Below, one piece after another: positions 1,684-13,265 of a stretch of 35,536 nt of DNA. Numbering within the stretch: the stretch's first letter is position 1; each line of letters starts with the position of its first letter. The position numbers and the translations under genes are program-made. The notes under the pieces were generated by a model. The model made no database searches and had not been told where the DNA came from. It was given only the letters and a program-made list of their open reading frames with translations. Source of the stretch: Candidatus Korarchaeum sp. (GTDB lineage Archaea > Korarchaeota > Korarchaeia > Korarchaeales > Korarchaeaceae). The stretch is from the NCBI GenBank assembly GCA_020833055.1, contig JAJHQZ010000009.1:1-35536 (forward strand). Reading direction: 5' to 3'.

Positions 1684-2499
1684 CTAAATTGATATAGCTA
1701 TTATTATCCCAGTCGTTATTAATATTGTACCAATAACTTCATTTCTATTCAATTTATTTCCACTAAGGGCAGAGGCTATCTGGGAGACTGGAGGGGCGAG
1801 TGCTGTCGTCAGTGAAGCTAGAGCCACACCTAGCTCCCTGACAGCGTAGAAGTAGAGCGGTAGGGATATGCCCACCCCTATCATCCCCCCTAGAGCTGCT
1901 TTCCCCTGACCCCTCACCCTAGGGCTCGGGAGGGAGAGCATGAGGTAGAGAGAAGCCACTATTATCGAGTTCCAAGTGGCTAATGTCACCTCGCTGACAT
2001 AATTCAGGGCTTTTTTAGCTGCTATAGGGCTGAGGGTCCACCCTATGGATGCTATTAGGCTCAAGGCTATCCCTCTCATCTTCCACTCCCCTGAGCCCCT
2101 CGAGATGAGCCATATCCCGAGGAAAGCGAGAGCAGCCCCTAAAAGAACGAAGGCTGAGAACGGCTCCCCTATCATTATGCTGGGGAGTATGGCCGTCCAT
2201 ATTAGGTAAGTGAATCCTATTGGCGTCGCTCTGCTCGGCCCTATAATGGCTATAGACTTCAGGAATGAGTAATCAGCTATTCCAGTGCCGAGAGCTGCGT
2301 TCAGGATTATGTAAATAATCGCTACTCGCGAGGGAAGCTCGAAGTTACTTAGATAAAGGAGGAGGAGTACTGATAGAGCTCCCAAGGACTTCCAGAAATT
2401 TGCTCTAGCAGACCCGCCCTCTCTAGATGCTTGAGCGTACAAGCTGGGGGTTATGCCCCAGACGCACCCCGCGAATATAGCCGCAGCTAACGCTAGCAA
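1684..2499 (-). CDS. DMT/EamA family transporter
   Basis: A 271-residue, almost wholly hydrophobic protein with about ten membrane segments in two repeated halves, as in the EamA branch of the drug/metabolite transporter superfamily. The N-terminal 'FAGCVWGITP' and the second-half motif 'IASIGWTLSPIAAKKAL' are the typical repeated first-helix signatures. Such proteins export amino acids or metabolites across the cytoplasmic membrane; the substrate cannot be read from the sequence. The start is TTG (2497-2499). It is divergent from the HMG-CoA reductase gene, and both promoters share the A/T-rich patch at 2515-2531. Confidence 0.85.
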   Translation of the reverse strand: MLALAAAIFAGCVWGITPSLYAQASREGGSARANFWKSLGALSVLLLLYLSNFELPSRVAIIYIILNAALGTGIADYSFLKSIAIIGPSRATPIGFTYLIWTAILPSIMIGEPFSAFVLLGAALAFLGIWLISRGSGEWKMRGIALSLIASIGWTLSPIAAKKALNYVSEVTLATWNSIIVASLYLMLSLPSPRVRGQGKAALGGMIGVGISLPLYFYAVRELGVALASLTTALAPPVSQIASALSGNKLNRNEVIGTILITTGIIIAISI

Positions 2500-2518
2500 G
2501 ACATCCCCGGGCGTAATG

Positions 2519-2531
2519 GTAATATTAAATA
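2519..2531. promoter_or_regulatory. Shared A/T-rich promoter patch between divergent genes
   Basis: The 47-base gap between the DMT transporter and HMG-CoA reductase holds one A/T block (TAATATTAAATAAA). It is about 20 bases from each start and could serve as TATA element in both directions. A short GGTGA precedes the reductase ATG. Confidence 0.4.
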
Positions 2532-2546
2532 AATGGTGAATGAGCT

Positions 2547-3818
2547 ATGCGTACTTCCAGGATACCCGGGTTCTACAATCTCCCGATGGATGAGAGGCTG
2601 GAGATAGTTAAGGAATTCGCTGGCCTGACCGATGAAGAAGTTGAGGTACTGAGAGAGGGTAAGCTCCCCAGGGAAGTCGCTGATCACATGATAGAGAATG
2701 TCATAGGCCTCTACTCCCTCCCCTTCGCTATAGCTACTAACTTCCTGATAAACGGGAAGGATTACTTGATCCCCATGGTAATAGAGGAGCCCAGTGTAGT
2801 AGCTGCCGCTAGTAATGCAGCTAAGATGGCGAGGGATTCCGGGGGCTTCGAAGCGGAGGCCACTGATTCAATAATGATATCTCAGATACAGGTAGTCAAG
2901 GTCCCAGATCTCGAGGAGGCGATCAGGAGGATAATGGCCGAGAAGGACAAGCTGATAGCAGCTGCTAATGAGATGGATCCCCTACTGACTAGACTCGGAG
3001 GAGGGGCTAGGGATCTCGAAGTTAGAGTCGTGGGCACTGAAGCCGGGCCTATGCTCATAGTCCACCTATTAGTGGATACTTTAGATGCGATGGGGGCTAA
3101 TACTGTCAATACAATGGCTGAGGGCCTAGCCCCAACCATAGAGAGGTTAACGGGGGGGAAGGTCTATTTGAGGATAATATCGAATTTAGCTGATAGAAGG
3201 TTGGCTAGAGCTAAAGCCAAGTTCTCGAAGGCGGCGATAGGAGGGGAGGAAGTCGTCGAGGGGATAATGTGGGCCTACAGGTTCGCTAAATACGATCCTT
3301 ACAGGGCTGCTACACACAATAAGGGGATAATGAACGGTATAATAGCTGTAGCACTGGCGACAGGCCAGGACACTAGGGCTTTGGAGGCTGGGGCTCACAG
3401 TTATGCAGCTAGGAGCGGGAAGTACACTACCCTCACTAACTACTGGGTGGATGATAACGGGGACCTCTGGGGTAGCATAGAGCTCCCATTAGCAGTGGGA
3501 ACTGTTGGAGGTGTCGTTAGAGTCCATCCTATAGCTAAGATAGCCCTGAAAATATTAGGAGTTGAGAGAGCAAGGGAATTAGCTATGGTAATGGCTTCAG
3601 TTGGCTTAGCTCAGAACTTCGCAGCTCTGAGGGCTCTGGCTACGGAGGGCATACAAGCTGGTCACATGAAGCTCCACGCTAGGAATATAGCTATGTCAGT
3701 AGGCGCTTCCCCGAGCGAGGTCGATGAGGTCGTTGAGAGGATGATAAGGGAGAGGAAGATAAACTTCGAGAGGGCTAAGCAGATACTGGAGGAGATGAGG
3801 AGTGGGAAGAAAGCTTGA
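2547..3818 (+). CDS. hmgA: Hydroxymethylglutaryl-CoA reductase, class II type
   Basis: 423 residues. It reduces HMG-CoA to mevalonate (or runs the reverse reaction), the committed step to archaeal isoprenoid lipids. The signatures are those of the class II (Pseudomonas mevalonii-like) enzymes: 'ENVIG' (about 50-54), 'NGKDYLIPMVIEEPSVVAA' with the catalytic Glu near 80-81, the substrate/cofactor segment 'DAMGANTVNT' (180-189), catalytic Lys259 in 'THNKGIMNG', Asp275 in 'GQDTRA', and the flap His373 in 'GHMKLHARN'. All catalytic residues are present. Start ATG follows GGTGA. Its last 17 bases overlap the next gene, implying translational coupling. Class II is not the usual archaeal form, so cofactor preference should not be assumed. 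Confidence 0.95.
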   Translation: MRTSRIPGFYNLPMDERLEIVKEFAGLTDEEVEVLREGKLPREVADHMIENVIGLYSLPFAIATNFLINGKDYLIPMVIEEPSVVAAASNAAKMARDSGGFEAEATDSIMISQIQVVKVPDLEEAIRRIMAEKDKLIAAANEMDPLLTRLGGGARDLEVRVVGTEAGPMLIVHLLVDTLDAMGANTVNTMAEGLAPTIERLTGGKVYLRIISNLADRRLARAKAKFSKAAIGGEEVVEGIMWAYRFAKYDPYRAATHNKGIMNGIIAVALATGQDTRALEAGAHSYAARSGKYTTLTNYWVDDNGDLWGSIELPLAVGTVGGVVRVHPIAKIALKILGVERARELAMVMASVGLAQNFAALRALATEGIQAGHMKLHARNIAMSVGASPSEVDEVVERMIRERKINFERAKQILEEMRSGKKA

Positions 3819-5628: not shown

Positions 5629-5640
5629 CTTTATATAAAA
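5629..5640 (+). promoter_or_regulatory. TATA-like promoter box
   Basis: 'CTTTATATAAAA' is a near-consensus archaeal TATA element. ATG 5661 is about 25 bases downstream, where a leaderless transcript would start. Confidence 0.55.
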
Positions 5641-5660
5641 CGCACCCTCAATTCAGCTCG

Positions 5661-5785
5661 ATGAGAGTCCTCTTAATATTATTTCTCCCATCTTGATCGC
5701 AATTTCTTCAATAATGCCCTTCCAGATACCTGAATGGACCCCGCTAGCCATCTGTTTAATCTTAGCTCCTCTCTCCTTCATTTAA
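5661..5785 (+). pseudogene. Small two-helix membrane ORF, frame-broken
   Basis: From ATG 5661 the frame reads 'MRVLLILFLP' and then stops. In the -1 frame it continues hydrophobically ('ILIAISSIMPFQIPEW', 'TPLAICLILAPLSFI') to TAA 5783-5785. One extra base in the C-run near 5687-5690 would give a 41-residue protein with two membrane helices. No family is recognised. The well-placed TATA box supports a once-real gene, but the ORF is short and the reading is tentative. Confidence 0.3.
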
Positions 5786-5801
5786 ATGTTGAGAGCTGCT
5801 C

Positions 5802-6047
5802 ATGAATTCAGGGAAAATGAATGAGGGAAGCAATTCCAGTAAGAGATCGAAAGTTATAGCTGGCTTGAAGGTCCTCGCACTATTCATCTTATCCTGGCTA
5901 TCCTTATCCTGGCTATCCTCCGGTTATTTGCTAGGGTTCGTCAGCAGCTCCCAAAAAGTTAACTATTATTGCTCTTGGTGCACACTCACAATATTTATAA
6001 GTAGAAGATCCTTAATTCTTCTGTGCCCGGTATGTGGTGGTAAGTAG
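5802..6047 (+). CDS. Small membrane protein with C-terminal Cys pairs (hypothetical)
   Basis: 81 residues: a Ser/Lys-rich N-terminus (1-20), one hydrophobic segment (about 23-48), then 'YYCSWC' and, after about 15 residues, 'CPVCGGK' at the very C-terminus. Two CxxC pairs at the end of a membrane-anchored protein suggest a zinc ribbon, but the stretch between the pairs (TIFISRRSLILL) is unusually hydrophobic, so the fold may be damaged. A perfect 15-base tandem duplication encodes the repeated LSWLS. The promoter of the candidate RNA gene lies inside its 3' end. Function unknown; the ORF could be spurious. Confidence 0.4.
   Translation: MNSGKMNEGSNSSKRSKVIAGLKVLALFILSWLSLSWLSSGYLLGFVSSSQKVNYYCSWCTLTIFISRRSLILLCPVCGGK
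5889..5918 (+). repeat. Perfect 15-base tandem duplication
   Basis: The unit TTATCCTGGCTATCC occurs twice back to back. It keeps the frame of the 81-residue ORF and encodes LSWLS twice within the predicted membrane segment. Confidence 0.85.
5991..6001 (+). promoter_or_regulatory. TATA-like box before the candidate RNA
   Basis: 'ATATTTATAAG' (preceded by CACA) is a good archaeal TATA element. Position 6025, where a G/C-rich self-complementary stretch begins, is about 25 bases downstream. Confidence 0.5.
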
Positions 6048-6228
6048 CACCGAATGGGCGCATGCGCAGGATGAGGGGAACCCCGTTGCCCCTGAAAGCC
6101 ATCGAGGATAGCAACAGAGCTATCCGAGATGGAACGGGTAGTAAATGTTAACTACTCGACAACGGAATTGGTCGGGAGGGACGTGAGGGTATCGATAGAG
6201 TATGTCCTGAGCCCCTCCTGAAGTTTTT
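6025..6228 (+). ncRNA. Candidate structured non-coding RNA, no known family recognised
   Basis: This stretch has no convincing protein frame, is clearly richer in G+C than the preceding gap and contains a series of local hairpins. These are GCCC 6025-6028 with GGGC 6056-6059 enclosing GGTG/CACC; AGGGG 6074-6078 with CCCCT 6089-6093; CCATC 6099-6103 with GATGG 6128-6132, enclosing GGATAG 6106-6111 with CTATCC 6120-6125 and separated by GA facing GA; GGGTAGT 6136-6142 with ACTACTC 6151-6157; and GGAGGG 6175-6180 with CCCTCC 6213-6218. A T5 run follows at 6224-6228, just before the convergent mntP stop. Together with the TATA box this is compatible with a stand-alone RNA gene. I found neither RNase P nor SRP signature motifs. 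Ends are estimates. Confidence 0.5.
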
Positions 6229-6236
6229 AATTAAGA

Positions 6237-6749
6237 TCACCCCAATGTATGCTCCATCAGGATCTTAACTCCTATAGCTATTAATATTAGCCCCCCTACT
6301 TTCTCAGATTTATCCCCCATCCCCCTCAGCCTCGAGCCCAAGCAGTAGCCAGCTATCGTGAGCAAGAAGGATGAGCCTCCGGCTACCAAGGAAGGCGTTA
6401 TTATCTCTAGGCCCAAGAGGGAGAGGGCTATCCCGACTGATAGGGCATCTATGCTAGTAGCTATCGATAGGATGAGTAGCATGGCAGATTTCACCTCATT
6501 TCCCCTCATCATATTTACCCCAGCGAAAAGGAGGAGCAGGAAGGCTATCCAGTGATCGAAAGCCCGTATGTAAGATTCCAAGAGGAGCCCGAAGGAGTAA
6601 CCGGAGAGGAGCATGAAGGATTGGAAGAAACCGAAGGATGTCGCGTAAGTGAGCGCATCCTTTCTCACATAATTGGGGCAAGCGGAGTTTGAGATAGATA
6701 CTGAGAAACAGTCCAAGGCCAAGCTGATGGATGTGAGTAGGGTATCCAT
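6237..6749 (-). CDS. mntP: MntP-type manganese efflux pump
   Basis: 170 residues with about six membrane helices. It matches the MntP (formerly DUF204/YebN) family: 'LALDCFSVSISNSA' in helix 1, 'FGFFQSFMLLSGYSFG', 'FDHWIAFLLLLFAGVNMM', and the second-half repeat 'ATSIDALSVGIALSLLG'. The two Asp-containing helix motifs (ALDCFSVS and SIDALSVG) are the conserved polar sites of the family. It is expected to export Mn(II). Start ATG 6749. The nearby superoxide reductase gene makes a shared metal/oxidative-stress context plausible. A duplicated A/T-rich element lies upstream. Confidence 0.9.
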   Translation of the reverse strand: MDTLLTSISLALDCFSVSISNSACPNYVRKDALTYATSFGFFQSFMLLSGYSFGLLLESYIRAFDHWIAFLLLLFAGVNMMRGNEVKSAMLLILSIATSIDALSVGIALSLLGLEIITPSLVAGGSSFLLTIAGYCLGSRLRGMGDKSEKVGGLILIAIGVKILMEHTLG

Positions 6750-12569: not shown

Positions 12570-13265
12570 TTATATCAGGAGGAGCTTCCCGTAACCCGAA
12601 ATCGGCTCCTTATACCCCAGCCTCCTGAGCATAGCCCATAGAGTAGCTGTGTTGCTCGAGAAAACTGGCTTTCCAATCTTCCTCTCCAAATGATCTATAG
12701 CTTTTATCGTGGGTAAGTTAGTGCAGCTTATGAATATTCCATCAGCCCCCTCATGCCTCAGCCCCTCTACTAAAGATATCAGAGTTTCCTTACTGACTCT
12801 CCCTATCTCAAGGTTATTCTTGAGTCTCAACGCCCTCAAATCGACTACTTCGAACCCGTTCTTCTCCAGGAATTCCTCCTCCTTCTCATTTATCTCATCT
12901 ATGTATGGAGTGGCCACAGCTACTCTCCTTATCTCTAGTGCCCTGAGGGCCCTCAGGACAGCTCCCGAAGTGGCTACAGCTGGGACACCTGAAACGGACT
13001 CCAGTCTCCTCTCCAGGATCTCATCGTGCCCAACTCCCCTTATCAAGCTCCCGCTCGTGCAACCATAACCTATTATGTCCACTCCAGCGTCCTTGAGCTT
13101 CAGAGCTTCATACTCAGCCTCCCTCTCCATCTCCTCGAGCCCTCTCACTGTCACCTCCTTGAGCCTCATCCTAGCTGTGTGTAGCGAGAATCCCTCGGGG
13201 AGCATCTCCCTGAATTCTATCTCCATCGTGGTATTGGAGGAGGGGACTATCAGACCTATCCTCAT
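12570..13265 (-). CDS. Maleate isomerase / arylmalonate decarboxylase-like (Asp/Glu racemase fold)
   Basis: 231 residues from ATG 13265, which has GGTGATT upstream; an in-frame GTG nine bases earlier is less likely. The start 'GLIVPSSNTTMEIEF' and the two cysteine motifs 'GYGCTSGS' (Cys69) and 'ISCTNLPT' (Cys181) define the maleate cis-trans isomerase / AMDase group of the aspartate/glutamate racemase superfamily. Both catalytic Cys are present, so an isomerase or racemase activity is more likely than a decarboxylase. It is the last gene behind the liv transporter genes (12 bases after livF), so it probably works on an imported carboxylate or amino acid. Confidence 0.85.
   Translation of the reverse strand: MRIGLIVPSSNTTMEIEFREMLPEGFSLHTARMRLKEVTVRGLEEMEREAEYEALKLKDAGVDIIGYGCTSGSLIRGVGHDEILERRLESVSGVPAVATSGAVLRALRALEIRRVAVATPYIDEINEKEEEFLEKNGFEVVDLRALRLKNNLEIGRVSKETLISLVEGLRHEGADGIFISCTNLPTIKAIDHLERKIGKPVFSSNTATLWAMLRRLGYKEPISGYGKLLLI

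Follow-up and report, generated by a model that had tools for sequence, protein, structure and literature searches.

A nuclease-less IS607-type element of Candidatus Korarchaeum as a candidate stand-alone guide-RNA gene

The DNA analysed here, a stretch of 35,536 nucleotides from Candidatus Korarchaeum sp. (hereafter designated the window), contains at positions 5937–6165 what is almost certainly a non-autonomous, tnpB-less element of the IS607 type. The copies of this element are probably stand-alone guide-RNA genes that make use of TnpB and TnpA proteins supplied in trans by autonomous copies; their transcription and their activity in trans are what we infer from the features listed below. 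The initial annotation had proposed a structured RNA at 6025–6228. The structure does covary among copies, but two different sequences meet within the interval. The element stops at 6165, and the final ~60 bases, 6166–6221, are the 3' part of a host gene that has been disrupted. A structured RNA with a TATA box was correctly perceived, and what escaped notice was that it is a mobile, tnpB-deleted IS607 derivative with a TnpB guide-RNA scaffold.

5640–5936, plus strand: left remnant of a DUF389-type host gene (5670–5904 is 92.8% identical to G010 L025)
5933–5936, plus strand: AGGG left junction; predicted TAM NAGGG, with GG as the IS607 overlap dinucleotide
5937–6165, plus strand: complete tnpB-less IS607-type copy of ~230 bp (BLAST and alignment of 15 short copies)
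5937–5969, plus strand: left end, common with autonomous copies (matches the left ends of L035, L038 and the IS607 elements L101, L105 and L100)
5994–6000, plus strand: TATA box TTTATAA, 29 nt ahead of the scaffold start
6022–6165, plus strand: guide-RNA (omegaRNA/reRNA) scaffold, composed of two fused tnpB 3' segments and the right end
6025–6059, plus strand: scaffold hairpin 1 (GCCC..GGGC, inner GGUG..CACC) in the zinc-ribbon codons (minimum-free-energy and consensus folds)
6099–6132, plus strand: GA/GA hairpin CCATC-GA-GGATAGC..GCTATCC-GA-GATGG, a kink-turn in most copies
6135–6158, plus strand: right-end hairpin CGGGTAG..CTACTCG (variants GGGTAG/CTACCC and GGATAG/CTATCC)
6166–6185, plus strand: predicted guide AATTGGTCGGGAGGGACGTG, host sequence adjoining the right end, with an exact target in G010
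6166–6228, plus strand: right-hand remains of the DUF389-type host locus (stop at 6219–6221), then a T5 run

Identity, distribution and autonomous relatives of the element

When 41 genomes were searched with positions 6005–6240 as the query, the segment up to 6165 was found repeated about ten times in its own genome (G000), several times in a closed genome of the same genus (G010) and more than ten times in Ca. Methanodesulfokora washburnensis (G022). G023 contained traces of it, and what matched in the remaining genomes was short or weak; among the genomes searched, the repeat is confined to korarchaeal ones. A scan of GTDB genomes for the core motif, which may lack the genome of the window and those very close to it, matched Ca. 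Methanodesulfokora washburnensis only, and no IMG/VR contig carried the motif. A wider BLAST query placed the repeat at about 5933–6165, and alignment of 15 short copies fixed its ends, with the element starting TTCGTCAGCAG at 5937 and stopping CGACAACGG at 6165. The flanks of these copies are unrelated to one another, column variability being 0.06–0.27 within the element versus 0.53–0.57 outside it. At least a dozen copies each have a different flank that could serve as a guide, and the sister genomes differ in which sites carry insertions. L044 (G000:C4) and L022 (G010:C1) have a common right flank and unrelated left flanks, which, together with a second right-end tail beside L044, indicates a rearrangement at the element. 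An older tnpB-deleted kind (L027, L051, L028, L050 and L052) has no TATA segment and keeps hairpin 2 of the full-length scaffold fully or partly; the derivative L027/L051 is common to both species.

The short element consists, in order, of the left end, about four tnpB codons, a segment of ~50 bp, the zinc-ribbon codons (LCPVCGGK) and, after a second deletion of ~60 bp, the last ~30 tnpB codons, the stop codon and the right end. The stop (TAA, 6149–6151) lies inside the right-end hairpin. The ~50-bp segment, which bears the TATA box, stands where the body of tnpB was, and 5970–6020 finds no match in the full-length copies L035 and L038. The scaffold is homologous to the zinc-ribbon codons and the last ~30 tnpB codons of the full-length copies L024, L035, L037 and L038. 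In TnpB transposons the guide-RNA scaffold normally lies in the tnpB 3' region and right end, and the window scaffold is read as a TnpB guide RNA because of its homology to just these parts. As in TnpB omegaRNAs/reRNAs, the covarying structure ends at the transposon right end, as judged by shuffles that are not phylogeny-aware. The region was initially described as having no protein frame, which is true here, but only because it is a broken tnpB 3' end. No link between the element and the neighboring mntP was visible.

At the four full-length loci, ~1 kb of sequence encoding a protein of 382–384 aa lies between the left and right halves of the repeat. Three of the four were scanned and proved to be RNA-guided TnpB (NF040570, 142–148 bits against a cut-off of 100, E = 1e-41 to 1e-43); the protein also matches Cas12f1-like_TNB, and its nearest solved structures are TnpB/Cas12f. 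In G010, the same ends surround a serine recombinase TnpA together with TnpB at L101 and L105, which are IS607 elements; at L101, TnpA (1312–1944) and TnpB (1916–3097) lie between a matching left end (1258) and right end (3111). The TnpA of these relatives has the PF00239 resolvase domain and an N-terminal MerR-like helix-turn-helix read from its sequence. Ends common with an element of serine-recombinase tnpA and tnpB place the short copies in the IS607 family. The tnpA-less elements with the 382-aa TnpB and the tnpA-bearing ones belong to different subfamilies, their TnpB proteins being 38–40% identical, and therefore it is only from the shared ends that we infer a mobilization in trans by TnpA; the insertion polymorphism between the sister genomes would fit it and lends indirect support.

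No tnpB of this subfamily was found in the own-genome assembly, in which the same TnpA reaches the end of the contig in three cases and contig C23 stops exactly at the edge of a full-length tnpB insertion known from G010. The ends of contigs C1, C3, C19, C23, C10 and C18 of G000 fall within IS607-type elements or at their borders, which explains why autonomous copies are missing from the assembly; they are probably present in the genome though unassembled. A Y1 transposase was found in neither G010 nor G022, and the only one in G000 lies in a separate element. With no Y1 transposase as a partner, an IS200/IS605 origin, including an IS200/IS605 PATE, was rejected. G000 does harbor an IS605-type element with a Y1 transposase and its own TnpB (G000:C3:48177–49681; L099 and L079), apparently of an unrelated family.

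Structure of the scaffold and its TATA box

The hairpin-rich folding noted initially is borne out on the plus strand, where 6025–6236 folds at -78.9 kcal/mol versus -61.9 ± 4.6 for shuffled sequences (z = -3.66), the minus-strand fold being weaker (z = -2.69). The elevated G+C is likewise real (52–55% versus about 40% upstream). In the full-length copies, the counterpart of hairpin 1 is CCTGTGCCC/GGGCACAGG; none of the short copies of the window kind has kept hairpin 2 of the full-length scaffold. Among the 15 short copies, which are under no coding constraint, paired columns vary less than unpaired ones (0.045 versus 0.146; permutation p < 1e-4), and the RNAalifold consensus has 34 pairs, three of them with changes on both sides.

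The hairpin already singled out, with facing GA/GA dinucleotides between two perfect stems, is present at 6099–6132 exactly as described. Across 27 korarchaeal copies (14 distinct variants), 95% of the cells in this hairpin are paired, with 19 two-sided changes, whereas 2000 shuffles of its 3' letters gave at most 15 and reached neither observed value; the shuffles ignore relatedness, and some of the rows, and part of the signal, come from coding copies. Among the changes are CAUC/GAUG to CACC/GGUG and GGAU/AUCC to AGCC/GGCU. In most copies (for example, L022, L024 and L031) the hairpin reads CCAUC-AAU-GA-GGAUAGC..GCUAUCC-GA-GAUGG, with tandem G:A pairs after a bulge of 3 nt, as in the definition of a standard k-turn (PMC8191799). 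The proposed tandem GA motif is accordingly of the k-turn kind and covaries, but the window copy itself, like L042 and the tnpA-bearing IS607 copies, has no 3-nt bulge. Having neither this bulge nor hairpin 2, the window copy may bind TnpB poorly. The binding of L7Ae to the scaffold kink-turn is a prediction.

No Rfam family was matched at the gathering score, nor was anything meaningful found at E ≤ 10, and RAGATH-18 (RF03064) matched none of three genomes at E ≤ 10; the scan has returned no routine RNA, and the view that the RNA belongs to no routine Rfam family is supported. RNase P was rejected, the RNase P RNA of the genome lying elsewhere (C11:18968–19254), as were tRNA and tmRNA, none having been found. 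A Mn-linked riboswitch or regulator of mntP was also rejected, the sequence being a transposon copy inside another gene and convergent to mntP.

The TATA box reported initially is upheld by its conservation across copies. Its variability is 0.057 versus 0.27 on either side in the 15 short copies, and in 14 of these it lies 24–29 nt upstream of the scaffold. Such a conserved island in the tnpB-less copies suggests a dedicated promoter. A CRISPR leader was considered as the source of the TATA segment and rejected, the leader of the main array being unrelated. At L049 (G000:C10, about 13038–13240), the left ~119 bp of the short element, including the TATA box, adjoins a CRISPR mini-array of three repeats and occupies the place of its leader; in the sister genome, a single degenerate repeat is found at this site (L026; G010:C1, about 1112756–1112890), and the leader of the main array is ordinary.

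The disrupted host gene, insertion sites and predicted guide

The window copy lies within a host gene whose counterpart in G010 (L025) carries a DUF389 domain, and the open reading frame at 5802–6047 is the left host remnant fused to the element. Across the stretch matching 6166–6228, G010 L025 reads SIRELVGRDVRVSIEYVLSPS followed by a stop. The T5 run noted initially is indeed found at 6224–6228, but in host sequence, outside the element. Compared with G010, ~335 bp of host DNA has been lost to the left of the element, with the left break at GGG (GCTRGGG). Both host breakpoints are at GGG, and the locus is more complete in G010 and decayed in the window. Such a loss would be expected if a recombinase had joined two GG sites by crossover.

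In most copies, the sequence immediately to the left of the element is NAGGG or GGG. IS607 recombination takes place at a GG dinucleotide (PMC4058570), and AGGAG and GAGGG have been reported as TAMs of IS607 TnpB proteins (Ren et al. 2024, PMC11061315); the NAGGG left junctions of the copies fit the latter. As is characteristic of IS607, there is no target duplication and the overlap is GG, the left junction being ..GGG, the right ..CGG and the empty sites ..AGGG^flank (^, junction). The empty target of the window copy in G010 is AAGGG^AATTGGTCGGG, where the genome reads ..CATAAGGG^AATTGGTCGGGAGGGACG. For L043, the empty site in G010 is contiguous with 96% identity (..CTTAGGG^AATATAATCC), and for L046 it is ..CTGAAGGG^ATAATCATC; in all three, GGG stands ahead of the flank. 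The G010 sites of L045 and L042 have diverged and are roughly consistent with empty sites, and the empty site of L047 shows no GGG. Mobility of the element is concluded from the shared ends, the GG-type junctions, the exact empty sites and the insertion differences between the sister genomes. The predicted guide of the window copy has an exact target in G010 (565158–565178, 0 mismatches) with GGG directly ahead, and at the occupied site in the window CGG (ACGG) stands there instead.

Proposed function, alternatives and relation to known systems

In the reading that we favor, transcription would start on the plus strand at about 6022–6026 and proceed through the scaffold into the flank, of which the ~20 nt after 6165 (6166–6185) would act as the guide. 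Loaded in trans with the RNA of the short copy, the TnpB of a full-length copy would cut element-free alleles in which the guide sequence follows NAGGG (AAGGG for the window), and repair after cutting would restore the element. The occupied site would be spared because the right end puts ACGG, not AGGG, before the guide sequence. Presumably, TnpA of autonomous copies moves the element in trans between GG-containing sites, which its two retained ends would permit.

The copies might instead be inert, MITE-like derivatives that are moved in trans by TnpA, with the tnpB tail as a passenger devoid of RNA function, retained since transposition requires the right end. Haloarchaeal tnpB-less IS605 derivatives that keep only the fused ends (PATEs) are known (PMC3119063), the k-turn bulge is lost in the window copy and L042, and the older type-A derivatives are without the TATA segment. 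This is nevertheless rather unlikely, given that the TATA box stays conserved amid variable stretches and lies at promoter distance, and that the stems are conserved far past the terminal hairpin while their loops are free to vary. The TATA box, along with at least a dozen copies whose differing flanks are possible guides, could also be taken to mean that the RNAs have been domesticated, so that TnpB would use them to repress or cleave particular host or viral targets instead of keeping the element in place. We regard this as very improbable: the guide is whatever flanks the insertion, the copies differ between the sister genomes, the one guide searched has the empty allele as its sole perfect target, and the trend is for insertion sites and guides not to be conserved between species. 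Least credible of all is an independent small RNA that binds L7Ae, the protein that archaea use for k-turn motifs, and is unrelated to transposition; most copies do have the textbook k-turn layout, but the hairpin comes down from tnpB and from IS607 elements, and the bulge is missing in the window copy.

For each part of the favored reading, namely TnpB guide RNAs, tnpB-less derivatives and k-turns in IS607 guide RNAs, there are precedents. Stand-alone omegaRNAs acting in trans have been reported for IscB; these are likewise guide-RNA loci without a nuclease gene, but the korarchaeal loci are archaeal, belong to an IS607-type TnpB and are still packaged as mobile elements. As in the omegaRNAs of IS200/IS605 TnpB (ISDra2 and archaeal sotRNAs), the scaffold overlaps the tnpB 3' end up to the right end and the flank is the predicted guide, whereas the ends are of the IS607 type with GG junctions and not of the Y1 type. 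The reRNAs of IS607 TnpB (RAGATH-18, ISFba1; PMC11061315) resemble the korarchaeal RNAs in their family, in a scaffold directly 5' of a flank-derived guide (a predicted one in the korarchaeal copies), in a TAM ending in AGGG in some members and in a scaffold k-turn, the UAU bulge followed by GA in RAGATH-18 being the same in copy L031; they differ in sequence and in lying outside the tnpB coding region, in contrast to the overlap of the korarchaeal scaffold with the tnpB 3' end. Like the haloarchaeal PATEs (PMC3119063), the elements are short, devoid of tnpB and transposase, bounded by TnpB-transposon ends and more numerous than autonomous copies, but, unlike PATEs, they are of the IS607 family, keep most of the guide-RNA scaffold and have gained a TATA-bearing segment. 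A literature search that fell short of key subscription papers found no description of IS607 elements that have lost tnpB but retained the scaffold and acquired a promoter, and no report of a guide RNA in Korarchaeia.

A broader proposal is tentative, and we hold it as less likely than not: a family of archaeal IS607 elements would have shed its nuclease and gained a promoter to become mobile guide-RNA genes, which would share one TnpB in trans and jointly direct it to a dozen or more sites, with L7Ae binding the k-turn. From each copy, one can predict its guide, its TAM and the empty site that would be targeted in the sister genome, which makes the idea testable. The k-turn ties the TnpB scaffold to an archaeal host lineage whose L7Ae binds k-turns. 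Cas12 descends from TnpB, and dispersed, promoter-bearing and nuclease-free guide-RNA elements would be a natural candidate for the step toward CRISPR arrays at which a single nuclease came to work with many guides encoded apart from it.
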